Shown: positions 1,976-61,693 of the stretch, piece after piece
How positions within the stretch are numbered: position 1 is the first letter of the stretch
Layout: each line of letters begins with the position of its first letter
Assembly (NCBI RefSeq): GCF_030166655.1
Contig: NZ_CP126446.1
Coordinates: 3,844,001-3,908,000, forward strand
From: Pontibacillus chungwhensis
GTDB lineage: Bacteria; Bacillota; Bacilli; Bacillales; BH030062
Length of the DNA stretch: 64,000 nucleotides
Reading direction: 5' to 3'
The notes under the pieces: model-generated
Database searches by the model: none
Seen by the model: the letters and a program-made list of their open reading frames with translations, nothing else
What the model was told of the DNA's origin: nothing
Translations under genes and position numbers: made by a program

Positions 1976-3262
1976 TTAAGAATTTTGAAATTGTTCGATT
2001 TCGGCTTCAGTCATTTTCTCACGCCAGATCACAGCACCAAGGTCAGAGAGTTTCTCTACTAAGTTCTCATATCCCCGGTCGATGTGTTCAAGACCTGTGA
2101 TTTCTGTTACGCCGTTCGCCATTAAACCTGCTGCGACAAGAGCAGCACCTGCTCGTAAGTCGCTTGCTTTTACCTTAGCCCCTTGAAGGGTTATCGGCCC
2201 ATTTACAATGGCCGAACTTCCTTCCACTTTGATGTCTGCATTCATACGACGCAGTTCATCAATGTGTTTAAAGCGTGCTTGATAAATCGTATCCGTTACA
2301 ACGCCTGTCCCTCTTGCTTGTGTTAAAAGTGAGGTAAAAGGCTGCTGGAGATCCGTCGGGAACCCTGGATAGACGAGTGTCTTAATATCCACGCTTGTCA
2401 AAGGATTTGAACGTCTGACAAGGAGTTGATCATCTCCGGTTTCCACTACAATCCCCATCTCTCTTAATTTCGCAATCAAGGATTCTAAGTGTAGAGGGAT
2501 GACATTATCAATAATGACTTCCTCTCCCTTAGCCGCTGCCATGATTGTATACGTCCCTGCTTCAATACGGTCCGGAATGATCGTATGCTGGCAGCCACTT
2601 AAATGGTCAACGCCCTCAATACGAATCACATCTGTTCCTGCTCCTTTAATTTTAGCCCCCATGCTAGTTAAAAGAGTCGCAACATCAATAATCTCCGGTT
2701 CCTTAGCAGCATTTTCAATAATCGTTTTCCCTTTTGCCTTTACAGCTGCAAGCATAATGTTAATGGTTGCACCAACACTCACCACATCAAGGTAAATGCG
2801 TGCTCCACGTAATTCTTCTGCTCTAAGGTAAATTGCTCCTTGCTCATTGGTAACTTGAGCCCCAAGAGCTTCAAAACCTTTAATGTGCTGGTCAATTGGG
2901 CGAGGACCTAAATGGCATCCTCCAGGTAAGCCGATTACAGCTTTCTTAAAGCGACCTAACATCGCCCCCATAAAGTAGTAAGAAGCGCGAAGCTTCTTTA
3001 CCCGTCCGTTTGGCAGGGGCATCGAGATCATGTCTGAAGGATCAATATAAATATCTTGGCCACGTTTAGAAACGCGCCCTCCTATTTCCTGCAGTAAGTG
3101 GCTTAGAGTGTCAACATCAGAAATATTCGGTAACCCCTCAATTGTTACAGGTGATTCAGCTAGAATAGCAGCCGGTAGTAATGCGACCGCACTGTTCTTC
3201 GCTCCGCTGACGCGTACCTTCCCTTTGAGAGAGTGACCTCCTTCAACAAGCAATTTTTCCAT
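1976..3262 (-). CDS. murA: UDP-N-acetylglucosamine 1-carboxyvinyltransferase
   Basis: Transfers enolpyruvate from PEP to UDP-GlcNAc, the first committed step of peptidoglycan synthesis. 428 residues, full length. Substrate-site KNS is at 22-24 ([16 protein letters not shown]), and the catalytic, fosfomycin-reactive cysteine is C116 in [16 protein letters not shown]. Ribosome-binding site AAGGGAG precedes the ATG. By position next to rho and glpX it corresponds to the second MurA of B. subtilis (murAB/murZ), so another murA probably exists elsewhere in the genome (inference from synteny). Confidence 0.96.
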
Positions 3263-3285
3263 GACGGACTCCCTTCTTTCATGTA

Positions 3286-3307
3286 AAGCCTATTTTAGAT
3301 TAGGCTT
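3286..3307. repeat. Small hairpin between fsa and murA
   Basis: AAGCCTA / TAGGCTT inverted repeat with an 8-nt loop in the 78-nt gap. On the plus strand it is followed by ATTTTG. It may be a weak terminator or a structure in the murA leader; function unclear. Confidence 0.35.
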
Positions 3308-3340
3308 ATTTTGCACAATATTTCCAAGTTCATGCACGAT

Positions 3341-3979
3341 TTATTTATTCCAATCGTTCTTGAACTTTTCAATACCTTGATCAGTTAGTGGATGTTTTAC
3401 TAACTGAGTAATAACTTTCAATGGAATAGTCGCAATATGCGCACCATGTAAAGCGGCTTCTGTTACGTGCATTGGATGACGAACAGATGCAGCGATAATT
3501 TCTGAATCAATGCTGTGACGGTCGAAAATCTCTGCGATTTGCGCGATTAAGTCCATCCCGTTTTGACCGATGTCATCCAGGCGACCTAAGAATGGTGATA
3601 CGTATGTGGCACCAGCGCGCGCAGCTAAAAGCGCTTGGTTGGCATTAAAGATAAGCGTTACGTTTGTTTTAACGCCCTTTTCTGATAATTTCTTAACAGC
3701 TTTTAGTCCTTCAAGCGTCATTGGAACCTTAATTGTAATATTCGGTGCAATCTTTACTAATTCCTCTGCTTCGCGCAACATTCCTTCTGCATCTTCTGCC
3801 ATAACTTCTGCGCTTACAGATCCTTCTACTTCATCTGTGATTTCTTTTAAACGGTCATGAAACGAAACGTTTTTCTCTTTCGCAACTAGTGAAGGGTTTG
3901 TTGTAACTCCTGCTAGGATTCCTAATGCGTTTGCCTCGCGGATTTCGTCAATGTTCGCTGTGTCGATAAAAAATTTCAT
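3341..3979 (-). CDS. fsa: Transaldolase-like / fructose-6-phosphate aldolase
   Basis: Small single-domain transaldolase (TalC/FSA subfamily, tal/ywjH in B. subtilis); class I aldolase chemistry in sugar-phosphate metabolism. 212 residues, the normal size for the short subfamily. Starts [17 protein letters not shown], has [12 protein letters not shown] (about 24-35), and the Schiff-base lysine is K84 in NITIKVPMT. Good ribosome-binding site (GGGGAGG). Which reaction it catalyses, transaldolase or F6P aldolase, cannot be told from sequence alone. Follows fbaA but is separated from it by a terminator. Confidence 0.93.
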
Positions 3980-4020
3980 GTGAATTTCCTCCCCTAATGA
4001 TGTGCAATTATTTATGTGAG

Positions 4021-4047
4021 CTGTTCACTTCCCATTTAAGTGAACAG
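4021..4047. repeat. 10-bp perfect inverted repeat upstream of fsa
   Basis: CTGTTCACTT, 7-nt spacer, AAGTGAACAG, lying 42-68 nt upstream of the fsa start and downstream of the fbaA terminator. It has no U-tract, so an operator or leader structure is more likely than a terminator. The regulator is unknown. Confidence 0.5.
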
Positions 4048-4104
4048 AAACCACTCTTTAGATCTATATAACTAGTACTTTCGCCATTTAAAACGTTTTC
4101 ATTT

Positions 4105-4138
4105 TATATAAAAGGAAACCGCCGAACTAGCGGCGGTT
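4105..4138 (-). terminator. Rho-independent terminator of fbaA
   Basis: Stem AACCGCCG / CGGCGGTT with a 6-nt loop at 4117-4138, followed on the minus strand by TCCTTTTATA. It lies 14 nt after the fbaA stop. Confidence 0.85.
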
Positions 4139-4151
4139 ACTCTTTTGTTTA

Positions 4152-5015
4152 CTATGCCTTCTGAGAAGAACCGAATTCGCGCATTTTGCCGATTACAGTT
4201 GCTTTGATCGCGTCGCGACCAGGACCCATGTATTTACGAGGATCGTAAAGGTCAGGCTTTTCAGCAAGAACTTCGCGAATCGCTTTACCTTGGGATACTT
4301 GGTTCTCAGTGTTTACGTTAATTTTCGCAGTACCGAAGGAGATTGCTTTTTGAATGTCAGCAGTTGGGATTCCAGTACCACCATGAAGAACTAGAGGCTT
4401 GTCTACAAGACCCATGATTTCTTCCATACGGTCGAAGCCTAGGTTAGGTTCACCTTTGTAAGGTCCGTGAACAGAACCTAATGCTGGAGCGAATACGTCA
4501 ACGTTTGTTTCATCAACAAGTTGCTTACACTCAGATGGAATTGCGTATGCTGCTTCAGCATCGTCAACGATTAGATCGTCTTCCTGACCACCAACACGGC
4601 CAAGTTCTGCTTCAACAGATACACCGTGGATATGAGCTAATTCAACAACTTTCTTCGTAACAGCGATGTTTTCTTCTAAAGGATCATGAGAAGCATCGAT
4701 CATTACAGATGTGAAACCAGCGTGGATTGCTTCCGCACATTTTTCGAAGCTAGAACCGTGGTCTAAGTGAATCGCAACTGGAACTGTTGTACCGTAAGAT
4801 TCCATAAGTGCTTCTACCATTGATACAACAACTTTGAAGCCACCCATGTAACGTGCTGCGCCTTCAGATACACCTAAGATTACTGGAGATTTCTCTTCTT
4901 CAGCAGCCTGAAGAATCGCTTGAGCGTACTCCAAGTTGTTTAGGTTAAATTGGCCAACACCATAACGGTTTTCTTTAGCCGTTTCTAACATTTCTTTCAT
5001 TGATACTAGCGGCAT
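4152..5015 (-). CDS. fbaA: Class II fructose-1,6-bisphosphate aldolase
   Basis: Zinc-dependent glycolytic/gluconeogenic aldolase cleaving FBP to DHAP and glyceraldehyde-3-phosphate. 287 residues. Zinc and catalytic signatures: HLDHG at 83-87, [11 protein letters not shown] (100-110), EAELG (about 135), GSVHG and VLHGGTG in the C-terminal half. Strong ribosome-binding site AAGGAGG. Together with glpX and fsa it makes a small central-carbon cluster. A near-consensus cre site lies about 150 nt upstream. Confidence 0.97.
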
Positions 5016-5163
5016 GGACTAGTCCTCCTTTATATACTTTCACAGAATCACATCGTATAGTGTTTACACCATCATACGTTCCAATTCTCTGACATAGGAA
5101 TTTAACACCTTTTCCTTACATAGCATACCAAGTCCATACCACTGGTGCAACAGCCCAATTAAA

Positions 5164-5177
5164 CGTTAGCGCTTACA
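5164..5177 (-). promoter_or_regulatory. cre-like site upstream of fbaA
   Basis: Minus-strand TGTAAGCGCTAACG matches the CcpA consensus TGWAANCGNTNWCA except for the last base. It is between the spo0F stop and fbaA, so CcpA could affect fbaA or act as a roadblock for spo0F read-through. Confidence 0.5.
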
Positions 5178-5203
5178 TAAACATTTTTCCTGCAAACGCC
5201 GGT

Positions 5204-5563
5204 CTAATGCAAAATATTCAAAATAATCTCCCTAATTTCTTGTACGTTAAAAGGCTTCGAAATAACCGTTTTTACAAGGGAGTGTGAGTGAGCCCCCTGC
5301 AGATCATCTTCTGATAATCCACTCATAAGTACAGCAGGAATTTGATAGTTCTCTGCTTGTAATTCATCCAGTACTTCAAGACCATCTTTAACCGGTAACT
5401 TATAATCTAATAGTAAAAGGTCTGGATGTTGTTCTTTGACGAAATCGACTGCTTCTTGCCCTGTTTTTGCTTCGATTACGTTTAGTTCCATCGTTTTCAG
5501 TACTTCTCTTAATAGCATGCGTATTCCAGGTTGATCATCAACCACTAATACTGACTTCGTCAT
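5204..5563 (-). CDS. spo0F: Sporulation phosphorelay response regulator Spo0F
   Basis: Single receiver domain without an output domain (119 residues). It takes phosphate from sporulation kinases and passes it to Spo0B, towards Spo0A. Acidic pocket D10-D11 (VVDDQPG), phospho-acceptor D53 (LLLLDYKLP), serine of the T/S position in AVLMSGLSE, and the conserved lysine in VISKPFN. Position between fbaA and ywjG matches B. subtilis, which supports Spo0F over another lone CheY-like protein. It diverges from B. subtilis Spo0F in the helix after the active site. Confidence 0.88.
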   Translation of the reverse strand: MTKSVLVVDDQPGIRMLLREVLKTMELNVIEAKTGQEAVDFVKEQHPDLLLLDYKLPVKDGLEVLDELQAENYQIPAVLMSGLSEDDLQGAHSHSLVKTVISKPFNVQEIREIILNILH

Positions 5564-5622
5564 AGTTCCCCTCCGTCCAAGTGTTTAATCCTTTAATTTA
5601 TGTATGACCTTTACATTATGTC

Positions 5623-5646
5623 AATTCGCTTAAAGAATAGCGAATT
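5623..5646. repeat. 8-bp inverted repeat between spo0F and ywjG
   Basis: AATTCGCT, 8-nt spacer, AGCGAATT in the divergent intergenic region. Possible operator; no partner recognised. Confidence 0.35.
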
Positions 5647-5694
5647 CCTGCATGCTTTTTCCGAAAACCCTAATATTCCCTTTTGCTCTATTAT

Positions 5695-5723
5695 TTTACG
5701 GAAAGTTTAAAAGCCGATACAAT
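5695..5723 (+). promoter_or_regulatory. Putative sigma-A promoter of ywjG
   Basis: -35 TTTACG, 17-nt spacer, -10 TACAAT, about 34 nt before the TTG start. Confidence 0.5.
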
Positions 5724-5757
5724 ATGAACGAGTTCATGCTAAAAGGAGGAAAACCCG

Positions 5758-6279
5758 TTGCTTAAAATGCTAGCTACTCAAATTACCGGCCTTTTCAGAG
5801 GGATTCATGAGAAGGAAGAATTTCAAATAGAAGATGTTGCCCGTTCTTTATCACAAGCTGTTGTGGGGGATGGTCGGATTTATGTGAAAGGATTTGGTGA
5901 AATGGTTGCCATTGAATCTGAAGTGCAATCAGGTCCTGAACCTTTGCCGAAACAGCACGTTTATGACCCTTCTGTCTCCTTAAGTCATCTCGATCGCGTA
6001 ATTGTTGCTTCTCGCTTTGCAGACGATGAGAATGCTTTATCGTTCATCAAGGATGTGCAAGAGCAAGGTGCGGAAGCTATTCTTATTGCTGCTGAGACAA
6101 AAGAGGACAATCCAGCTAAAGAGCAAGCGGATTTCTTTATTAACACCAGAGCAAAAGGACCGCTTCTCCCATTTGAAATGGAGCGCGTCGGCTTCCCAAG
6201 CACCATAGCCATGCTATATGTCCACCACGCCCTCTTCGTCACCGTCAAAGAAATCACCGACGAATACGACATCGACTAA
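5758..6279 (+). CDS. ywjG: DUF2529 family protein YwjG
   Basis: Conserved Firmicutes protein of unknown function, 173 residues, located as in B. subtilis between spo0F and pyrG but transcribed divergently from spo0F. The sequence alternates hydrophobic strands and helices (GRIYVKGFGEM, DRVIVASRF, EAILIAAE) in a way that recalls a SIS/Rossmann-like sugar-phosphate fold; that comparison is inference. The TTG start is supported by AAAGGAGGA 7 nt upstream. The first ATG at 5767 would be too far from it. Confidence 0.85.
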   Translation: MLKMLATQITGLFRGIHEKEEFQIEDVARSLSQAVVGDGRIYVKGFGEMVAIESEVQSGPEPLPKQHVYDPSVSLSHLDRVIVASRFADDENALSFIKDVQEQGAEAILIAAETKEDNPAKEQADFFINTRAKGPLLPFEMERVGFPSTIAMLYVHHALFVTVKEITDEYDID

Positions 6280-6306
6280 CACTTCTATGCGGTGAAGGGA
6301 TGGTGC

Positions 6307-6393
6307 GTGTCAGACACCGTTTAGTGCTTTAATGAAGTGCAGGGTGTTTGACACGATTTAGCGCTTTACCAGTGTGCAGGGTGTCTGACACCC
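6307..6393. repeat. Family D repeats, three copies of GTGTCnGACAC
   Basis: Palindromic cores at 6307-6317, 6344-6354 and 6381-6391, embedded in a degenerate unit ending CCCTTTAGTGCTTT-like. The cluster lies just beyond the pyrG terminator. Same family as clusters near 9010, 28390, 33300 and 61620. Confidence 0.8.
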
Positions 6394-6426
6394 TGCTGTT
6401 CTTTACAGCGTTAAAGTGAATAGGGT

Positions 6427-6460
6427 AAAAAAAGCCTGCCGGGTGATCGGCAGGCTTTTT
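6427..6460. terminator. Bidirectional terminator between ywjG and pyrG
   Basis: Stem GCCTGCCG / CGGCAGGC flanked by A-run and T-run on both sides. It serves pyrG (minus) and could also stop ywjG read-through. Confidence 0.9.
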
Positions 6461-6467
6461 AGTGGTT

Positions 6468-8084
<1,617 letters not shown>

Positions 8085-8152
8085 TTATTTAATCCTCAGG
8101 AGGTCTTCGATACTTATATGCTATACATTTCATTATCTTTTTATAAAATAGA

Positions 8153-8186
8153 AAAGCGCTCCCGTTAAATCTAACGGGAGCGCTTT
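8153..8186 (-). promoter_or_regulatory. pyrG leader attenuator hairpin
   Basis: 15-bp perfect stem AAAGCGCTCCCGTTA with a 4-nt loop, followed on the minus strand by TCTATTTTAT. It lies between the pyrG transcription start (8212) and the pyrG ATG. The 5' arm contains GCTCCC, the C-rich tract that G-extended transcripts bind in the B. subtilis pyrG mechanism. It may also terminate rpoE read-through. Confidence 0.8.
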
Positions 8187-8208
8187 AGTTTCCGATCTCT
8201 TTTAGAGA

Positions 8209-8248
8209 GCCCAAATAAAATAATACTGACTTCAGGAAAGAAAGTCAA
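8209..8248 (-). promoter_or_regulatory. pyrG promoter and GGGC start site
   Basis: -35 TTGACT (8243-8248), 17-nt spacer, -10 TATTAT (8220-8225), 7 nt, then GGGCTC starting at 8212. A GGGC initial transcribed sequence is the hallmark of reiterative G addition when CTP is low, known from B. subtilis pyrG. The -35 lies only 6 nt after the rpoE stop. Confidence 0.8.
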
Positions 8249-8254
8249 GAACGC

Positions 8255-8833
8255 TTATAAATCTTCGTTTTTGTCTTCCTCTTCATCATCATCATCGTCG
8301 TCTTCTTCGTCATCATCGTAGAGATTCTTTTCCTCATCGTCGTCATAGCTTGGATCTGTGTCTTCATCTTCAGCTAGATCGTAGTCTCCATCTAAACCAC
8401 TGTTCTCTTCCCCGTCTTCGTCGAGGTCAAGTTCTTCGTCATCTAGATCAAGATCATCTTCGATCTCTTCTTCTTCGATGTCTTCCTCTTCTTCTTCAAC
8501 AGGAGCTGCAGCTTTTTTCTTCTTAGGAGCAGCTTTCTTTTTCTTCTTAACAGGAGCTTGAATTTCTTCTTCAGCTTGTTCAACAGGATACCAACGCTTC
8601 AGTCCCCACATGTTGGAACCAATCGTAAGGAAACGGCCATCTGTATTTAAATCCGTAAAGAATTGAGCAATACGATCCGTTTTCTCTTCTTTGGAAAGTC
8701 CTTTAATCTCGCTAATTTTATTGAATAGGTCTTGAAAATCCAGCGCTTGCTTTTCGTCAAGTAAGATCTCATGCGCGATTTCTAGCATAGACATTTCAGC
8801 AATCTCGTCGTGGCTATAGTTTTTAAAGCTCAC
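8255..8833 (-). CDS. rpoE: RNA polymerase delta subunit
   Basis: Gram-positive RNA polymerase accessory subunit that helps recycle polymerase. 192 residues. The N-terminal HARE-HTH fold is about 1-90 (SMLEIAHEILLDEKQALDF..., SNMWGLKRWYP). Then comes a lysine block (KKKKKAAPKKKKAAA, about 97-111), then a very acidic disordered Asp/Glu tail to the end. The GTG at 8833 is chosen over an in-frame GTG at 8842 because AAAGGGAG lies 8 nt upstream of 8833 and overlaps the other. Position next to pyrG is conserved in Bacillaceae. Confidence 0.95.
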   Translation of the reverse strand: MSFKNYSHDEIAEMSMLEIAHEILLDEKQALDFQDLFNKISEIKGLSKEEKTDRIAQFFTDLNTDGRFLTIGSNMWGLKRWYPVEQAEEEIQAPVKKKKKAAPKKKKAAAPVEEEEEDIEEEEIEDDLDLDDEELDLDEDGEENSGLDGDYDLAEDEDTDPSYDDDEEKNLYDDDEEDDDDDDEEEDKNEDL

Positions 8834-8879
8834 GTACAGCACTCCCTTTATATCAAATATTTACTCATCATAACATAAT

Positions 8880-8908
8880 AGTATAAATTCTACGTTGTTC
8901 GGTTTCAA
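8880..8908 (-). promoter_or_regulatory. Putative sigma-A promoter of rpoE
   Basis: -35 TTGAAA (8903-8908), 17-nt spacer, -10 TATACT (8880-8885), about 47 nt before the GTG start. Confidence 0.65.
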
Positions 8909-8922
8909 CCATATCATACATT

Positions 8923-8945
8923 ATAAACAATTCAATATTGTTTAT
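8923..8945. repeat. 9-bp inverted repeat upstream of the rpoE promoter
   Basis: ATAAACAAT, 5-nt spacer, ATTGTTTAT, beginning 15 nt upstream of the -35. It could be an operator or an AT-rich UP-like element. Confidence 0.45.
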
Positions 8946-9008
8946 GCTAGAGTTTCGCCGAGTTTTTTCATGTGAAGGACGCTTCCTTTAGCACACTACA
9001 GCACAGCA

Positions 9009-9060
9009 GGGTGTCTGACACCCTTTATTGCTCTACCCCACTACAGCGTGTCTGACACCC
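9009..9060. repeat. Family D repeats, two copies
   Basis: GTGTCTGACAC cores at 9011-9021 and 9048-9058, just beyond the icmF terminator. Confidence 0.8.
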
Positions 9061-9089
9061 TTCACTGCTCTGCTGCGTTAGAGCGTGAG

Positions 9090-9117
9090 AAAGGGGAACC
9101 TTTTTGGGTTCCCCTTT
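9090..9117 (-). terminator. Terminator of the icmF operon
   Basis: 11-bp stem AAAGGGGAACC / GGTTCCCCTTT, 7 nt after the icmF stop. The U-tract is short on the minus strand. Confidence 0.75.
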
Positions 9118-9123
9118 TGTGGT

Positions 9124-12100
9124 TTACATGTTGCGGCGGTATTGGCCGCCGACTTCGTATAGGGCGTTTGTGATCTGGCCAAGGCTTGCGACTCTTACGG
9201 TTTTCATTAATTCTTCGAAGATGTTGCCACCGCTCGCGGCGACTTGCTTTAATTGTGCTAAAGCGGCTTCCGTTTCATTCTCATGTTTCCCTTGGAATTC
9301 TCGTAAAGAAGTGATCTGATGCATCTTCTCTTCTTTTGCAGCTCGCGCAAGCTGCATGGAGTTAATGTCATCTTCAGACGATGGGTTTGGATTCAGATAC
9401 GTATTCACGCCAACGATCGGCAACTCTCCGCTATGTTTCTTCCCTTCATAATAGAGAGACTCTTCCTGAATCTTTCCACGCTGGTACTGTCGTTCCATCG
9501 CACCAAGGACACCCCCGCGATCATTCATGCGTTCAAACTCCTGCATAACCGCTTCTTCCACAAGGTCTGTCAGCTCTTCAACAACGAACGAGCCTTGTAA
9601 AGAGTTCTCATTCTTCGTTAATCCGAATTCTTTGTTGATGATCATTTGAATCGCCATCGCACGGCGAACGGATTCTTCCGTAGGCGTCGTGATCGCTTCG
9701 TCATAGGAATTCGTATGAAGAGAGTTACAGTTATCTTGTATAGCGATGAGTGCCTGCAGCGTCGTACGAATGTCGTTAAAGTCAATTTCTTGAGCGTGCA
9801 GGGATCGGCCTGACGTTTGGATATGATACTTTAACTTCTGACTTCGTTCATTTGCACCGTACTTATCGCGCATGACAATCGCCCAAATTCGGCGAGCTAC
9901 CCGACCAATAACGGTATACTCAGGGTCGAGACCATTCGAGAAGAAGAACGAAAGGTTCGGAGCAAATTTATTAATATCCATGCCCCGGCTTAAATAGTAC
10001 TCCACATAGGTAAATCCATTCGCAAGTGTAAAGGCGAGCTGCGTAATCGGGTTCGCCCCTGCTTCTGCAATATGGTAACCAGAAATCGATACAGAGTAAT
10101 AGTTGCGCACCTCATGGTCGATGAAGTACTGCTGAATATCTCCCATCATACGTAGGGCGAATTCAGTTGAGAAGATACATGTGTTCTGTCCTTGATCCTC
10201 TTTTAAAATATCCGCCTGCACCGTTCCCCTTACAATAGAAAGGGTTTCTTCTCGTATTCTTTCATATTCCTCAGCCGATGGCGTGCGACCTTCTTGTTCT
10301 TTAAACTTCTCAAGCTGCTGGTCAACGGCTGTGTTAAAGAACATCGCAAGTATGATCGGCGCCGGTCCGTTGATCGTCATTGATACGGATGTGGTTGGTT
10401 CGCATAAATCAAATCCGTCATACAGCTTCTTCATATCTTCTAGTGTACAAATCGAAACGCCACTTTCCCCGACTTTTCCGTAGATATCCGGACGTTCATC
10501 CGGGTCTTCACCGTAAAGCGTTACGGAATCGAAAGCAGTACTTAAGCGCTTCGCAGGTTCGCCTTCTGATAAATAGTGAAAACGACGGTTCGTTCGTTCA
10601 GGTGTGCCTTCACCGGCAAACTGACGGGTTGGGTCCTCCCCTTTCCGCTTAAACGGAAACACTCCGGCTGTGAACGGGAAAGCACCCGGTACGTTTTCTT
10701 TAAGCATCCACAGTAAACGATCGCCAAAGTCCTGGTAATGAGGGAGCGCGACCTTTGGAATCTTAAGCCCGGACAGCGTCTCTGTGTTAAGGTCCATTGT
10801 AATTTCCTTATCACGCACTTTGAAGGTCATCTTATCCTGAGCGTAGCGCTCTTTCGTATCGTCCCAGTTCTCAAGCATTTTCTTAAGGTCAGGCTGCAAT
10901 TTCAACTCATAAAACGAAGCCATTTCATCCACATGCTCGCGGATCTCTTCATTCTCGATCGCACTGACTGCCCCTTTTAACTGGTACCATTTGCGTGCCA
11001 CTTCGCTTTGGTTCTGGGCCATTTCATGATAGCCCCTGACCGATTGAACGATGTCCCGTAAATATTGACGGCGCTCCGGAGGGATAATCAAGTTCTGTTT
11101 CTCAACCTCTGTCACTCGTTCAAACGATGTTCCCTCTTCCCAGCTATATGTTTCATTCAACTTATCTACAAGAGCTGCAAACAGCGTGTTCGTTCCGGGA
11201 TCGTTAAACTGGCTTGCAATCGTTCCATAGACCGGAAACGATAAAGGGTCCTGATGAAACAGACCGTGACTGCGCTCATACTGCTTACGGACCTGCCTTA
11301 ACGCATCTTCAGAACCTTTTTGCTCAAATTTATTAATGACGATGAAATCAGCAAAGTCAATCATATCAATCTTCTCAAGTTGTGAAGGGGCACCAAATTC
11401 AGCTGTCATCACATACATCGAAAGGTCCGTTACATCCGTAATCGCAGCATCTCCCTGACCGATCCCGCTTGTTTCAACGATGATAAGGTCAAAGCCTGCC
11501 ACTTTTACAACATCAATGGCTTCTTGAATGGATTTCGATAGTTCGCTTCTTGAGTCACGAGTTGCGAGTGAGCGCATATACACACGGTCTGAGAAGATCG
11601 CGTTCATTCGAATACGGTCCCCTAAAAGCGCTCCGCCGGTCTTCTTCTTAGTCGGGTCTACGGATAGAATCGCTACTTTCTTATCTGGGATTTCATTTAA
11701 GAAGCGACGAATGAGTTCATCTGTCAGCGAGCTCTTCCCGGCTCCGCCTGTTCCGGTAATGCCAAGGACAGGCGCTTGTGAGGGCTCTGTTGCTAGTAGT
11801 TGTTCAACAGCAGAAGCGACTTCCTCATGAGCGTGGTCCGAGTTTTCTACATACGTAATAAAGCGGGCGATCGCTTGGGGATTGCCGCTTTTTAGACTTT
11901 CTGTCGCTGTATCTAAATCGAGTGGGGTTACGAAATCACACTCTTCTAGCATTCTATTAATCATGCCTTGAAGCCCGTACTCTCGCCCATCTTCCGGCGA
12001 GAAGATGCGTGATACGCCGTATTCGTGAAGCTCTGCGATCTCACGAGGTATAATAACTCCCCCTCCGCCTCCATATACACGTATATGCGTGGCACCTTTT

Positions 12101-24007: not shown

Positions 24008-25678
24008 TTACATTCTTGCTGGTGCGGATACGCCGATTAGTTTTAGGGCGTTTTCGATTGTTTGGCGTGTTGCTTCCATTAGGGCCATACGTGCTTGTGT
24101 ACGCTCCACTTGCTCTGTGTCTAACACTTTCTCAGCGTTGTAGAAGCTGTGTAAGTCAGAGGCTAAGTCAAATACGTACTGCGTCACGCGGTGAGGCATA
24201 CGCTTTTCAGCAGCGTCTGCTACTAGTTGCGGGAAGTCACCAAGGCGTTTGAGTAATGCTTCTTCTTTTTCTGAAGAAAGATGAGTGCCGTCGATTTCCT
24301 CTGTAAACTCGAAGCCTTTCTCTTTTGCAGAGCGAAGCATGCTGCAAATACGCGCGTGTGCGTATTGAACATAATACACCGGGTTATCGTTTGATTCAGA
24401 CTTCGCTAAGTCCATATCAAAGTCAAGGTGAGAGTCACTTGAACGCATGCTGAAGAAGTAACGCATTGCGTCAATTCCTACTTCGTCCATCAGTTCACGT
24501 AGCGTGACAGCTTTACCGGTACGTTTACTCATCTTCACTTTTTCACCGTTTTGGAACAAGTTCACCATTTGGATGATTTCCACTTCTAGTGTGCTCTCGT
24601 CATTTCCAAGCGCTTGGATCGCTGCTTTCATACGAGGAATGTACCCATGGTGGTCGGCTCCCCAGATGTTAATAAGCGTTTCGTAGCCACGCTCTAACTT
24701 GTTTTGGTGATAAGCGATGTCTGGAGTCAGGTACGTGTAACTTCCATCATTCTTAATAAGAACACGGTCTTTATCGTCACCAAAGTCCGTTGTACGGAAC
24801 CATGTTGCACCGTCTTGTTCGTAGACATAGCCTTTTTCTTTTAATGTTTCAACGGCTTGCTGAACTTTTCCAGAATCATAGAGAGATGTTTCAGAGAACC
24901 ACTCATCGAACGGAACGCGGTACATCGCTAGGTCATCTTCAATTTTCTTCAGTTCATATTTCAGTCCGTATTCACGGAAGAATTTCAGACGCTCTTCTTC
25001 TGATTTGTGCTTCCACTCGTCGCCATATTCTTGAACAAGGCTGTTTCCAAGTTCGATGATATCTTTCCCGTTGTACCCATCTTCAGGCATCGGGAAGTCT
25101 TCACCTAACGCTTGCATGTAGCGAGCTTCCATGGACGTTGCCAAGTTGTTGATCTGGTTACCGGCATCGTTAATGTAATATTCACGAGTTACATTGTAGC
25201 CAGCTTTGTCTAAAACGTTGCACAGCGCGTCCCCAACAGAGGCACCACGTGCGTGACCAAGGTGAAGATCGCCTGTTGGGTTGGCTGATACGAACTCTAC
25301 CTGAATCTTATGGCCATTTCCGACCTGACTTGAACCATAGCTCTCGCCAGCCTTAAGAATCGTTGGCACAAGGCCTGTCAGGTACTGGTTATCCATAAAG
25401 AAGTTAATGAAGCCAGGACCTGCAATTTCCATTTGTTTAATGGATGCTTTTGATTGGTCAAAGTTCGCTACTATATCTTCTGCAATCTGGCGTGGCGCTT
25501 TACGTGCTACACGAGCAAGTTGCATCGCCATATTCGTTGCGTAATCGCCGTGGCTCTTGTCCTTTGGCGTTTCTAAAACGACAGTAGGTAATTCACTTTC
25601 ACTTGCTAATTCAGCTTTTAGTACGGCCTGTATAATTTCATCTTTTAACTTTTGTTCCGTTTGTTCAACAATATTCAT
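24008..25678 (-). CDS. argS: Arginyl-tRNA synthetase
   Basis: Charges tRNA-Arg; class I synthetase of 556 residues. N-terminal Add-1 domain, HIGH-type motif [14 protein letters not shown] (about 135-148), [12 protein letters not shown] (KMSKS equivalent, about 388), and the C-terminal DALR anticodon-binding domain. The ATG overlaps the ywiB stop (ATGA), so the two are translationally coupled. Confidence 0.97.
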
Positions 25679-26118
25679 GATTGGCCCTCCTCTTTGAATC
25701 GTAAGGATAAACGATGACGTTGTTTCTGTTGTCCGTTCACTTCTAAGTCGTAATTTATTTTCAGCATGCCCTTCAAGACGTCATTAGATTCTTGAAAGGA
25801 TATCGTTTTTGTAGTGGTTTGCAAATGAAACTTTCCGTACTGATGGTGATACACACTTTCCGTACTTTGTTTCTCTCGGAATACCTGATTCATTCGTACA
25901 GGACCCGTCCGACGAATGATGACTTTGTCCGGATGAATGGTTACAAGGTTGTCCACTTTCGTCTCATCCTCTGTTTTCTCTGTGAAACGAATAATATGGG
26001 CATTCCCTTTCTGAACATAATCCCCGGGCTCGTCTACAACGATGTTTTGTTTCTGATCTTCGTCTTTAATCTCAGTCTCTAGTCGAACACGTATAGGAGT
26101 ACGATCCTCCGCCATCAT
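25675..26118 (-). CDS. ywiB: DUF1934 family protein YwiB
   Basis: 147 residues, beta-rich, calycin-like small protein of unknown function (B. subtilis YwiB). Alternating strands such as [28 protein letters not shown] and [14 protein letters not shown]. Conserved upstream neighbour of argS, which it overlaps by 4 nt. Start ATG 26118 with AGAGGTGA upstream. Confidence 0.88.
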
Positions 26119-26216: not shown

Positions 26217-26807
26217 AAAAGTGCAGGGGGCTTGCTTAGAGGCGTACGGATAAGACAGCTTTTTGGAAAAGGCGTTAGCCTTTGGAAAAAAGATGACTTA
26301 TCTCGCTAGCCTCTAGCCCCCGGAACTGGATCAGGAAAAGTGCAGGCGGGGTGGTCAGGGGCGTACGGATAAGCAAGATGCCGGAAGTGGCGTTAGCCAC
26401 TGCAGTTAGATTGCTTATCTCGCTAGCCCCTCCCCGCCGGAACTGGATCAGGAAAAGGGCAGGCGGGGTGGTTAGGGGCGTACGGATAAGCAAAATAACG
26501 GAAGTGGCGTTAGCCACTGCAGTTAGATTGCTTATCTCGCTAGCCCCTCCCCGCCGGAACTGGATCAGGAAAAGGGCAGGCGGGGTGGTTAGGGGCGTAC
26601 GGATAAGCAAAATAACGGAAGTGGCGTTAGCCACTGCAGTTAGATTGCTTATCTCGCTAGCCCCTCCCCGCCGGAACTGGATCAGGAAAAGGGCAGGCGG
26701 GGTGGTTAGGGGCGTACGGATAAGCAAAATAACGGAAGTGGCGTTAGCCACTGCAGTTAGATTGCTTATCTCGCTAGCCCCTCCCCGCCGGAACTGGATC
26801 AGGAAAA
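26217..26807. repeat. Family B 117-bp tandem array (five units)
   Basis: Units start at 26221, 26340, 26457, 26574 and 26691 (periods 119, 117, 117, 117). The last three are identical as read. Each unit folds as a long hairpin: outer arms GGCGGGG...AGGGGCG with CGCTAGCCCCTCCCCGCC, middle arms GATAAG with CTTATC, central GTGGC-GTTA-GCCAC. The first unit has different arms (GGGGGCT...AGAGGC with GCCTCTAGCCCCC; AGGC-GTTA-GCCT) that still pair. Units are linked by GGAACTGGATCAGGAAAAG. Any ORF across the array is a repeat artefact. Confidence 0.9.
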
Positions 26808-26910
26808 GTGGAGACGGGGTCAGGTAAAGAGGAAGTTCGACTAAGTTCGCCACGTCCTGTGGCAACGTCGAACGACCCGACGTCGTGTGGGCGGAACTGG
26901 ATCCAGAAAA
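26808..26910. repeat. Family C hairpin element, copy C1
   Basis: Follows the B array. Inner hairpin GCCAC-GTCCT-GTGGC (26849-26863) inside an outer pair GTTCGAC / GTCGAAC (26835-26841, 26867-26873). Also contains GACGTCGTG. The second copy is at 37164. Its outer flanks (GAAAAGTG... GCGGAACTGGATC) are those of a B unit, so C1 seems to replace the middle of a B unit. Confidence 0.75.
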
Positions 26911-27216: not shown

Positions 27217-28239
27217 TTACAGCTTCTTCAGTTCACTCAATGGGATCTTCGCGAACATGTAATGCCCCTGCCTGATAAAGGCTTGGTGGGATTTTGTGAG
27301 AAGCTCTTTATCTTTCAACGCTTTTCCTAAGTAATAATCTTGGAAAGGGCTTCGGTCTTGAATAGGTGAGAGGATATCAATGGCGGTCTGGACATCTCCT
27401 CTGGCAACTGCTAAATGAGCCTGTTCCGATTTATCGCTTGTCGTAATCCCTTCGTAAACCCCATTCACTGCTGAAAGAAACGGAATATTATGGTTTTTGA
27501 CACTCTCTACATACCTATAGTCCCCTGCTTCTTCTGCTATTCGCATCGCTTCGTTCGCGTGATACATCGCATGTTGATAGCTTTCTAGAACGTAACTAAT
27601 GGCAAGGTAGTTGTGAACAAAGGATTTCTTGTCAGGGTTAAAGGTTTTATTTAATACTTTAAAGGCATATTTGCGCCCTAACAGAAGTTCATTCTTGGAT
27701 AGATGATAAACGAAAAAGACTTCATCCAATCGCTCCTCGTAACAGAGCAGGAGGAATGAATCACGTATGTGTAACATTTCCTCTGTAATAGCTTCCACAT
27801 CATTGCCCATCTTGCCATACTGATTCAGGTCTACATGGGCATATAATTTTAAGAACAGCATGATCACATTTATTTCTTTGTTCAGTGGTTTAATGCGGCT
27901 TAATTCCAGCAAAATTTCATTCGGATCATTATAATGGGTCTTCCGTTCTAACACGATTCGATAGACACGTCCCCACTGTTGGTTGATTGGATTCGAACTA
28001 GCTTCGTTAATCTTGATCAGTTTCTCACATGCTTCCCGAAACCCTATTATGTATAGAAATTCCAGCCCTTTACGCTGGTTATCTTCATTTCTCGATTCAA
28101 GACAAAAGTGTTTCATACACTCTAGTACTTGGGATCGCTCATACTGACGTGACAAAACTTTATATACAGCAAAAATCGGCGCCTCTTCCGGCTGCTGAAA
28201 AGGGCTAATAATGGCTTCAACATTTACGCTCTCATCCAT
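27217..28239 (-). CDS. AimR-family-like peptide receptor without DNA-binding domain
   Basis: 340 residues, all-helical TPR-like repeats. It resembles AimR, the arbitrium peptide receptor of SPbeta-type phages, along most of its length: ECMKHFCLESRNEDN...GLEFL near the start, WGRVYRI (about 107), and the C-terminal pattern SEQAH...A.DIL...YYLGKAL...FAKIPLSELKKL. AimR proteins have about 45 residues of helix-turn-helix before this region. Here only about 23 residues precede it, and an in-frame stop lies 14 codons upstream of the ATG, so the HTH is absent. Good ribosome-binding site AAAGGAAG. No phage genes and no candidate AimP nearby. A Rap/NprR-type TPR protein is the alternative. Confidence 0.65.
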   Translation of the reverse strand: MDESVNVEAIISPFQQPEEAPIFAVYKVLSRQYERSQVLECMKHFCLESRNEDNQRKGLEFLYIIGFREACEKLIKINEASSNPINQQWGRVYRIVLERKTHYNDPNEILLELSRIKPLNKEINVIMLFLKLYAHVDLNQYGKMGNDVEAITEEMLHIRDSFLLLCYEERLDEVFFVYHLSKNELLLGRKYAFKVLNKTFNPDKKSFVHNYLAISYVLESYQHAMYHANEAMRIAEEAGDYRYVESVKNHNIPFLSAVNGVYEGITTSDKSEQAHLAVARGDVQTAIDILSPIQDRSPFQDYYLGKALKDKELLTKSHQAFIRQGHYMFAKIPLSELKKL

Positions 28240-28387
28240 CTCTCCACTTCCTTTATCGCCGAATCCACAAGCTACACTTTACTTTCGTACCTTTACACAA
28301 AAACCATTTTTTCACAGATCAGCAAGACTATCAAGAAAAAAGACTAATAAATTATAAGCTTGCTTTACTGATGTGAAGCACCACAGC

Positions 28388-28437
28388 GTGTCTGACACCC
28401 TTTAATACAGCAGAGCGACGCAGGGTGTCTGGCACGC
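28388..28437. repeat. Family D repeats, two copies
   Basis: GTGTCTGACAC at 28388-28398 and GTGTCTGGCAC at 28425-28435, just beyond the speB terminator. Confidence 0.8.
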
Positions 28438-28485: not shown

Positions 28486-29358
28486 TTATTTGGTCCAGCC
28501 TAGCAGGATTTCACGGATCATTTTGCTGGCTGTGATTTGGGTTTGTTCGGATGGGTCATAGGCGGGTGCTACTTCTACAAGGTCAGCACCGATGATGTTA
28601 AGATCTGAATCGGCAATCATACGGATGGATTCAAGCAACTCTTTAGAAGAGATGCCCCCTGCTTCTGCTGTTCCTGTTCCAGGTGCGTAAGCTGGGTCAA
28701 GGACATCGATATCGATCGTCACATAGACGTTACGTCCTGATAGCGTCGGCAATACTTTCTTCAAAGGCTCTGCGACCTCAAACTTAGACATGTGCATGCC
28801 GCTTTCTTTCGCATATTGAAACTCTTCGCGCATACCAGAACGAATGCCAAAGGAATATACATTCTCAGGTCCGATCAACTCACAAATCTTTCTTACTGGA
28901 GTAGAGTGAGACAATGCTTCGCCTTCGTATTCTTCTCTAAGATCTGCGTGGGCATCGATGTGAATGAAGGCCATATCGCTGTACTTCTCATGGAAGGCTT
29001 GGATAATCGGCCAAGTGACCAGATGCTCCCCACCCATTCCTAGAGGGAATTTCCCCTGATCTAGAATGGTGGTCACGTAATCCTGAATCATATCAATGCT
29101 TCGCTGCGGATTTCCAAATGGCAAAGGAATATCTCCTGCATCAAAGTAAGCGACTTCTTCAAGGTGTTTATCGGCATAAGGACTATACTCTTCAAGTCCA
29201 AGTGACGCTTCCCGAATTCGGTTCGGGCCAAAGCGTGAGCCTGGTCGGAAACTAACCGTCCAGTCCATCGGCATACCAAAGAGAATAACGTCTGACTCTT
29301 CGGCTGTCGGGCGACTCATAATAAATACTTTACCAGAATAGGCTTCGTCAAAGCGCAT
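28486..29358 (-). CDS. speB: Agmatinase
   Basis: Hydrolyses agmatine to putrescine and urea; binuclear Mn ureohydrolase of 290 residues. Metal-ligand motifs GMGGEHLVTWP, FIHIDAHADLR and VTIDIDVLDPAYAPGTGTAE. Follows speE by 12 nt, giving a putrescine-to-spermidine unit as in B. subtilis. The arginine decarboxylase SpeA that supplies agmatine is not in the window. Confidence 0.95.
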   Translation of the reverse strand: MRFDEAYSGKVFIMSRPTAEESDVILFGMPMDWTVSFRPGSRFGPNRIREASLGLEEYSPYADKHLEEVAYFDAGDIPLPFGNPQRSIDMIQDYVTTILDQGKFPLGMGGEHLVTWPIIQAFHEKYSDMAFIHIDAHADLREEYEGEALSHSTPVRKICELIGPENVYSFGIRSGMREEFQYAKESGMHMSKFEVAEPLKKVLPTLSGRNVYVTIDIDVLDPAYAPGTGTAEAGGISSKELLESIRMIADSDLNIIGADLVEVAPAYDPSEQTQITASKMIREILLGWTK

Positions 29359-33217: not shown

Positions 33218-33300
33218 CGCGTGATCCTCCTTCTTCCTACACGAAATCATTTATTCCCTTATTCTAACACATCCACCCACTCCCACTAAAGCAATGCAGG

Positions 33301-33385
33301 GTGCCAGACACGCATCAGTGCTCTAAAGCGCTGAATGGTGCCAGACACGCGTTACTGCCCTAAAGCACTAAACGGTGTCTGACAC
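33301..33385. repeat. Family D repeats, three copies
   Basis: GTGCCAGACAC at 33301 and 33338, GTGTCTGACAC at 33375: an exact 37-nt spacing. The cluster is just beyond the ywgA terminator. Confidence 0.8.
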
Positions 33386-33413
33386 CCTTTAGTGCTTCAA
33401 CGCATAAAAAAAG

Positions 33414-37137: not shown

Positions 37138-37299
37138 CCAAGGGTGGCTAGGGAACGAGGAGGCTTTTAAGGGAGAGAGGAAGTTCGACTAAGACCGTCA
37201 CGTCCTGTGACAACGTCGAACGACCCCACGTCGTGCAGGGCCGCGGAAAGGGAGTAGTTTCTCGACCCACCTTACTCTCCCCAGAGGTAACGGAAACAG
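37138..37299. repeat. Family A remnant A7 with family C copy C2 inserted
   Basis: Left part GAACGAGGAGGCT and right part GCCGCGGAAAGGGAG...AACGGAAAC (to 37299) belong to A. The roughly 85 bp between (37167-37249) is family C: GTCAC-GTCCT-GTGAC (37197-37211) within GTTCGAC / GTCGAAC (37183-37189, 37215-37221). The C1 copy has GCCAC/GTGGC at the same stem, a compensatory pair change. Confidence 0.7.
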
Positions 37300-61592: not shown

Positions 61593-61620
61593 TCACTTTA
61601 TTGCTTTAAAGGGAGGACGG

Positions 61621-61668
61621 GTGTCTGACACGCTTCATCCCTTCACAGCAGTGAATGGTGTCTGGCAC
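61621..61668. repeat. Family D repeats, two copies
   Basis: GTGTCTGACAC at 61621-61631 and GTGTCTGGCAC at 61658-61668, 37 nt apart, just beyond the pxp operon terminator. Confidence 0.8.
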
Positions 61669-61693
61669 GCGCTGTTGCTTTAGAGCACTAAAA

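Follow-up and report, generated by a model that had tools for sequence, protein, structure and literature searches.

We identified a gene in Pontibacillus chungwhensis whose product is the TPR part of the arbitrium receptor AimR. It is a member of a chromosomal clade without HTH that occurs in halophilic, spore-forming Bacillaceae and occupies three main loci. The gene is real and lies in a stretch of 64,000 nucleotides, hereafter called the window (Table 1). With moderate confidence, we read its product as a cytosolic AimR-type peptide-pheromone receptor without a DNA-binding domain, an orphan that would act in Rap-like fashion through protein contacts and respond to bacterial peptides in trans. 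The field of this receptor is probably sporulation-stage or post-exponential control.

The window protein was compared with profile, structure and fold collections. It matched the Pfam family AimR (PF22871) over residues 40-339 with an E-value of 4.5e-71 and 240 bits (cut-off 26.7), the NCBIfam model NF038310 (lysogeny_AimR) with 1.6e-56 and 191.9 bits (cut-off 70), and PHROG 1728 with 9.2e-57. The NCBIfam profile was entered at position 37 and the PHROG profile at position 36 of 380. All 10 PDB sequence matches at E up to 1 were arbitrium receptors. The AlphaFold model, built with 47 sequences, was all-helical with a mean pLDDT of 94.5, and in a Foldseek search of the PDB the top 16 folds were all AimR (E 1e-10 to 9e-9), with RapF next at 3.7e-3. 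Pfam, NCBIfam and Foldseek thus agree on the presence of the AimR TPR regulatory domain. An earlier note on this DNA, made from the sequence alone, had aligned the protein with the TPR part of arbitrium receptors over most of its length; the AimR profiles it suggested bear this out, as does the fold comparison with AimR and Rap, where RapF was far weaker than AimR and no unrelated TPR family came first. The Pfam search returned no RNA-binding domain and no other family above its cut-off. The three-helix bundle RapH_N (PF18801) gave no match at E up to 1, and the AimR-like part is preceded by merely 24 residues.

Table 1 Features of the receptor gene and its neighbors, in window positions.
Feature	Position	Strand	Basis
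HTH-less AimR-type TPR receptor gene (locus A copy, orphan)	27217..28239	-	340 aa, ATG start; profile, fold and model matches
Helix and TPR superhelix, residues 25-340	27220..28167	-	phmmer alignment, model, fold match; ends at the position of SPbeta AimR residue 374
N-terminal 24 residues, one short helix (7-14)	28168..28239	-	phmmer alignment and model; the AimR counterpart has 50 residues including most of the HTH
In-frame stop TAA, rules out an N-terminal extension	28279..28281	-	Read from the sequence; 13 open codons between stop and ATG
Intrinsic-terminator-like stem and T-run, 33 nt past the stop codon	27157..27184	-	Consensus scan (5 sites found, 1.9 expected in the region)
Weak sigma-A-like promoter candidate, 9 of 12, TG before -10	28306..28334	-	Consensus match alone (6 found, 2.8 expected)
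speB-like (arginase family) gene, upstream neighbor, marks locus A	28486..29358	-	Gene neighbors
DUF1934 gene, downstream neighbor, marks locus A	25675..26118	-	Gene neighbors
argS, next after the DUF1934 gene	24008-25678		Gene neighbors

The HTH domain of SPbeta AimR comprises residues 1-59 (PMC6458997). In most of the 10 PDB matches, phmmer aligned residue 25 of the window protein with AimR residue 51, and the helices of the model leave no space for an HTH. We trained an HTH HMM on the N-terminal sequences of 13 relatives with an HTH, whose class had been assigned by eye; with scores that are partly circular for this reason, the 13 training rows reached at least 37.7 bits, the 75 other rows at most 9.0 bits and the window protein 1.1 bits. 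Leave-one-out scores ranged from 1.4 to 29.7 bits, indicating that a divergent HTH can be missed, so the length of the N-terminus was used as separate support. The window protein has 59 residues before the anchor Glu, compared with 83-90 in the 13 HTH forms and 47-74 in 69 of the 72 HTH-less rows; the remaining three have 79-102, probably through start choice. Start codons were taken from the ribosome-site score or the longest frame, and the N-termini of L099, L104a and L008 are probably too long. L107, L108 and L110, which fall outside the 72-row clade, also had low HTH HMM scores. In the DNA preceding the window gene and two of its orthologues, no frame scored above 3.5 bits with the HTH HMM; a frameshifted HTH, which the earlier note had said would count against its reading, was thus not found. 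Its other statements on the N-terminus agree with the entry of the profiles at 36-37, the low HMM score and the short N-terminus (HTH absent), with the 13 open codons and the stop that precedes them (a stop 14 codons upstream), and the HTH-bearing forms that it proposed to look for among relatives are represented by the 13 rows that stand apart from the HTH-less clade.

At the other end, L380, L383, L384 and L386 nucleate the constant dimer interface of AimR (PMC6458997). The window protein stops at the position of AimR residue 374, and the residues L380-L386 of the C-terminal dimer helix are absent. With neither an HTH nor these dimer-helix residues, DNA binding in the style of AimR is unlikely. 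Since loss of the HTH leaves the target open, the receptor could instead be a peptide-controlled RNA-binding or anti-termination factor. We regard RNA as a very improbable target, given that Pfam shows no RNA-binding domain above its cut-off and that the Raps, its known relatives without an HTH, have proteins as targets.

The window gene is flanked by argS and the DUF1934 gene on one side and by speB and speE on the other. This is a housekeeping locus conserved between genera, not one carried by a phage or other mobile element, and it matches the earlier description of polyamine-gene neighbors without phage surroundings. No signal-bearing DP ORF was found within 350 nt downstream of the gene. 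A peptide gene in the receptor's own transcript was considered and rejected, and the stem that begins 33 nt past the stop codon corresponds to the terminator that the earlier note had placed 35 nt downstream to exclude an aimP there. Similar terminator-like stems were seen by eye past the stop in two orthologues. The claim that the receptor has no peptide gene therefore holds locally but fails genome-wide, as a DP-type propeptide lies beside a paralogue at C1:517129.

We then analyzed the distribution of HTH-less receptors. A non-exhaustive scan of a collection of species genomes with one short pattern gave at least 53 related loci in Pontibacillus, Oceanobacillus, Virgibacillus, Gracilibacillus, Aquibacillus, Sediminibacillus and others. 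By their gene neighbors, with families confirmed on one member each, 20 belong to locus A, 28 to locus B, 2 to locus C and 3 to other places; L079, whose frame is not settled, was dropped ahead of the counts of 52 receptors given below. As far as contigs reach, locus A has the order ywhD, penicillin-binding protein, speE, speB, receptor, DUF1934 and argS, and locus B the order spoIID, M23 gene, receptor, spoIIID, mbl and flagellar rod genes, the M23 gene being taken for spoIIQ. The genome of the window (G000) carries three HTH-less receptors and no further AimR match at E up to 10: the window gene at locus A, a paralogue at locus B (C1:3803507) and a paralogue at locus C (C1:516126). Four Pontibacillus genomes have three or four receptors in tandem at locus A.

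A tree of 88 receptors, made by a quick method, containing several long branches and drawn with phage AimR as the root, had a branch with support 99 that set off the 72 HTH-less rows. One change each sufficed for the 13 HTH-bearing rows and for loci A (29 rows), B (33) and C (4), with support of 99, 67, 90 and 98, respectively, a count that leaves out 9 ungrouped rows and in which locus A is poorly supported. The wider family indicates that the HTH was lost rather than gained. A bacterial family at the same places in several genera does not fit the earlier idea of a domesticated receptor, in the sense of a lone phage gene. Two other arrangements were observed in this survey. One, in L105 of G013 (1979-10483), is an array of seven chromosomal AimR-like genes of 384-387 aa, of which the five checked carry an HTH and belong to the training set; past its last gene lies a signal-bearing ORF in which PLG-GG motifs recur. 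In the other, in L104 of G096 (4121-8136), a 561-aa gene that begins like a signal sequence has two HTH-less receptors immediately downstream, the last of them trailed by a propeptide containing two DPG repeats.

We searched phage and plasmid records for relatives of the window protein. Five phage and four plasmid records matched with 21.8-24.0% identity; the phage matches are AimRs of about 23% identity, and the HTH was checked in two of them. A scan of viral contigs with motifs of the HTH-less clade yielded 24 stretches that fit a pattern, none of which encodes a relative. The BFVD fold search showed no AimR among the 50 matches listed, a blank that says nothing on viral relatives. We rejected a phage or plasmid origin of the window gene on account of the low identity of the record matches and the viral contigs without a relative, and PMC12700828 argues the opposite of phage-to-host transfer for AimR as a whole. 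An alternative is that the HTH-less protein serves as an anti-phage decoy, pairing with incoming phage AimR or soaking up AimP and thereby disturbing the lysis-lysogeny decision. Its fold is the same as that of phage AimR, and chromosomal AimRs have been suggested to eavesdrop on phages (PMC9765709). We nevertheless consider this role improbable, as the protein ends at AimR residue 374, before the dimer-nucleating leucines, the phage AimRs found are distant, the viral-contig scan gave no relative, the likely peptides are bacterial and one sister locus lies between sporulation genes. Likewise, the bacterial DP-type peptides and the empty viral-contig scan speak against the earlier suggestion that the receptor answers a peptide of a resident phage; among the modes proposed then, Rap-like action or a response in trans is still the likeliest reading, while a phage peptide as the signal is not.

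The 350 nt downstream of each receptor were searched for short ORFs that begin like a signal sequence and carry DP close to the end. Such ORFs followed 19 of 52 receptors, compared with 1 of 411 neighboring genes. They were distributed as 0/19 at locus A, 16/28 at locus B, 2/2 at locus C and 1/3 elsewhere, the value for locus B being a lower bound because a signal-like start was required. Typical peptide ends are DPGLGDMD, DPELGGLD, DPDYGEIG, DPDTGGMG and DPHVVGIG. DP-type peptides were also present downstream of some HTH-bearing relatives, for example one on a plasmid (L097) and two chromosomal (L109 and L111), which agrees with the DPG motif reported for AimR (PMC12700828). In nine genomes, including that of the window, the pattern DPxxxGxG-stop had seven matches, six of them beside receptors, and the reversed control had one. 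The genome of the window has one propeptide candidate, which ends in SDPDIKGMG and adjoins the locus-C paralogue. It scored an E-value of 1e-9 with a propeptide HMM whose training included it, and the next match was at 0.011. An unlinked pattern match in the same genome, DPPSFGVG, was discarded because by look it is no propeptide. The peptide HMM is noisy, with real-looking propeptides as weak as 0.0027 (G005) and 0.019 (Saliterribacillus persicus) among chance matches. In G001, no DP ORF was found after the locus-C-like receptor. At locus B of Pontibacillus marinus (L053, downstream of 7032), two successive propeptide ORFs were observed, the first with four DPVEPPIK copies and the second ending in DPDTGGMG.

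We next considered genomes in which locus A could depend on a peptide made elsewhere. Sixteen genomes were picked for having a locus-A receptor, among them G100, which was scored from its second receptor with that receptor's neighbors left unread. A peptide ORF with a DP end was present in 14 of the 16: five were found by HMM (E 1.2e-6 or better), one is that of S. persicus, seven came from reading locus B and one (G066) from a contig end. Neither the HMM nor the reading of locus B gave a DP peptide in A. rhizosphaerae (G120) or A. koreensis (G128). In most of the 14, the peptide adjoins the genome's own locus-B receptor, and those genomes alone therefore do not show action in trans.

Three genomes depart from this arrangement. 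Locus B of S. persicus is without a receptor (the best tblastn match, E 0.029, falls within the M23 gene) but has retained a TGTCGAACGATT box as well as an intact propeptide with the end HMDPDYGDIG. The locus-B receptor of Aquibacillus salsiterrae is split over two frames, while the ORF ending in KDPAYEDVG and the locus-A receptor are both intact. Gracilibacillus timonensis has no receptor at locus B and a 15-codon ORF ending in DPDYGDIG. In all three, the sole intact AimR match is the locus-A gene. This uncoupling is what would be expected if a locus-A receptor, the type of the window, used a locus-B peptide, and young losses would look alike.

The Gracilibacillus locus-B peptide ORFs have no signal sequence: MTQIRRHDPDYGDIG (G122), MNVLKKCDPDYGDIG (G124), MKLVKKFDPDYGDIG (G100) and MSIKFVKKCDPDYGDIG (G284). 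Two further locus-B frames of the genus are one with an unclear start (G121) and one with MREGLLLEKKIKNIDPDFGDIG (G066). By eye, purine-rich ribosome sites precede the ORFs of G122, G124, G100 and G284, and a stem with a T-run follows those of the same four genomes and G121. These ORFs were found solely by reading frames and were missed by the peptide HMM. Leaderless ORFs in place of a signal-bearing propeptide were observed in L137, L138, L131, L123, L124, L125 and L103; where the start is clear they have 15-22 residues, and they end in DPDYGDIG or DPDFGDIG. Among the DPDYGDIG codons of six genomes (five Gracilibacillus and S. persicus), 7 of 24 bases vary, all at third positions and all synonymous, which shows selection on the octapeptide. 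Across the 397 genomes of the order, DP[DEG]YG[DE]xG-stop was found in three, all of the genus Gracilibacillus and all at locus B, with no control match; this pattern is too narrow for the Pontibacillus type, and G142 in that search is the same genome as G122.

We examined whether the pocket known from AimR is retained. In SPbeta AimR, N202, R228 and T236 anchor AimP (PMC6458997). In a register that is uncertain at about 20% identity, these three residues are changed in the window protein, D360 is replaced by His326 and E272 matches E300. As the anchors are not conserved and D360 is replaced by His, peptide binding is not given by homology. The equivalents of E300 and F276 are each kept in 65 of 66 rows of loci A, B and C, and each in 29 of 29 at locus A. 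At 36 positions at least 85% of the clade agrees; the window protein follows it at 34 of these, the exceptions being residues 328 and 332. It is conceivable that the window copy is a constitutive TPR scaffold that has kept the fold and lost peptide control. The altered anchors and His in place of D360, the lack of a signal-bearing peptide gene at all 19 locus-A receptors and the two locus-A genomes in which no DP peptide was found would agree with this. We judge it unlikely, because the E300 and F276 equivalents persist throughout locus A, the clade-conserved positions are nearly all kept in the window protein, and intact peptide ORFs occur in the three genomes whose sole intact AimR match is at locus A.

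The window gene can be aligned end to end with two orthologues at 81-84%, and identity to them is 0.85-0.86 at first, 0.92 at second and 0.52-0.55 at third codon positions. These values, together with 340 open codons and a clade of 72 HTH-less rows at conserved loci, are difficult to reconcile with a decaying AimR remnant. This explanation, to which the missing HTH and peptide and the visibly broken locus-B relative L129 might point, is disfavored and has a very slim chance of being correct.

We also searched for regulatory sites that link the receptors to sporulation. The core of the Spo0A box is TGTCGAA (PMC3485338). It occurred in the 200 bp preceding 22 of 28 locus-B receptors, with 0.74 expected from shuffles; controls were 29/403 for other genes, 0/29 for spoIIID, 0/28 for spoIID and 11/28 for the locus-B M23 gene. 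Locus A was weakly enriched (4/19 vs. 29/403, p 0.05), and the window gene has no Spo0A-box core upstream. Sigma-H-like sites upstream of receptors gave no signal (1/52 vs. 6/403 in controls). Spo0A_C was detected in 119 of 120 relatives, so co-occurrence offers no contrast for a link to sporulation. The location of the sister locus between the M23 (spoIIQ-like) and spoIIID genes, with its Spo0A boxes, makes sporulation control the likeliest field. RapH_N matches were present in five Pontibacillus genomes, in frames of 427-471 aa that we take to be NprR, and three genomes of the genus had no match; Rap-sized RapH_N frames exist in other genomes than these. A second, short Spo0A_C protein (open frame of 176 aa) was noted at G000:C1:1497151-1497462, and also in G005 and G006.

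These observations suggest a possible mechanism for the orphan receptor. A paralogous locus would make a small propeptide whose C-terminal octapeptide is the signal, DPDIKGMG in the genome of the window. The peptide would be exported, re-imported and bound in the groove of the TPR superhelix. Binding would then change the shape of the superhelix, which would close, and the HTH-less receptor may thereby capture or release a protein partner, as Raps do. The window copy, as an orphan member, would answer in trans. In this scheme we infer export and import, the length of the mature peptide, its binding, the protein partner and the biological role. More tentatively, and with slightly less than even confidence, we propose that halophilic Bacillaceae harbor a second, independently evolved Rap-like world: an HTH-less AimR lineage at conserved chromosomal loci, wired to Spo0A at one of them, in which receptor and peptide are uncoupled, so that signaling falls to one locus (or, in Gracilibacillus, private signaling by short leaderless peptides) and listening to another, with the window gene as a pure listener.

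The window receptor shares with SPbeta-group AimR the superhelix (residues 25-340), the best PDB matches and the E300/F276 pocket positions, and DP-type peptides occur beside some HTH-bearing relatives too. It differs in lacking an HTH, a neighboring peptide gene, the dimer residues of the C-terminus and the N202/R228/T236 anchors, and in its housekeeping chromosomal locus. With Raps, including the orphans RapB, RapD and RapJ, it has in common an HTH-less TPR receptor, orphan members and a sister locus in a sporulation context. Orphan Raps can answer the peptide of a sister, as RapB is fed by PhrC (PMC9765709). In contrast to Raps, the window protein has no RapH_N match, its fold is closer to AimR (E 1e-10) than to Rap (3.7e-3) and its sequence belongs to AimR. 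The chromosomal AimR "eavesdroppers" of PMC9765709 are likewise AimR-type receptors without a propeptide; there, a propeptide candidate is reported for 11% of AimR genes outside mobile elements, and almost 90% have none. Those receptors were proposed to respond to phages, however, and HTH-less AimRs are not mentioned in the accessible portion of that study, where Rap is given as the only HTH-less group of RRNPPA members. A second HTH-less RRNPPA subfamily, subfamily 17 of Anoxybacter, is described in PMC12700828. Its Clan C offers a parallel in the DPG motif common to the peptides of AimR and of the Paenibacillaceae subfamily 08, but in the portion available HTH loss founds Rap and subfamily 17 rather than an AimR branch. 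The very short signal-less ORFs of Gracilibacillus locus B resemble the leaderless peptides of RopB-LCP (PMC10518010), which pair with RopB, whereas those here adjoin HTH-less AimR-type receptors.

No description of an HTH-less AimR clade was found in the titles or abstracts of the open-access literature searched. Leaderless peptides and orphan Raps are of a kind already known; what looks new is an AimR branch without HTH, together with its loci and the uncoupling. If correct, our reading would add HTH loss in a further RRNPPA branch beyond Rap (PMC9765709), and would make the puzzle of chromosomal AimRs without a peptide open to test, as these may respond to sister loci instead of phages. The window protein clears the cut-off of the NCBI model for lysis-lysogeny receptors by a wide margin, yet we found no pointer to phage control. 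The conserved DP octapeptides are ready ligands for a direct test of the window receptor.

Several other elements were observed in the window. Downstream of it, a 117-bp tandem repeat with 4.5 copies and 97% matches occupies window positions 26297-26820. Bacillaceae-1 RNA matches above the gathering score lie at 26825-26891, adjoining the tandem repeat, and at 37173-37239. The palindrome GTGYCWGRCACNC had 18 matches in the window against 0.03 expected, in clusters at 6305-6393, 9009-9060, 28386-28437, 33299-33387 and 61619-61670, the third of which lies in the upstream region of the receptor gene.
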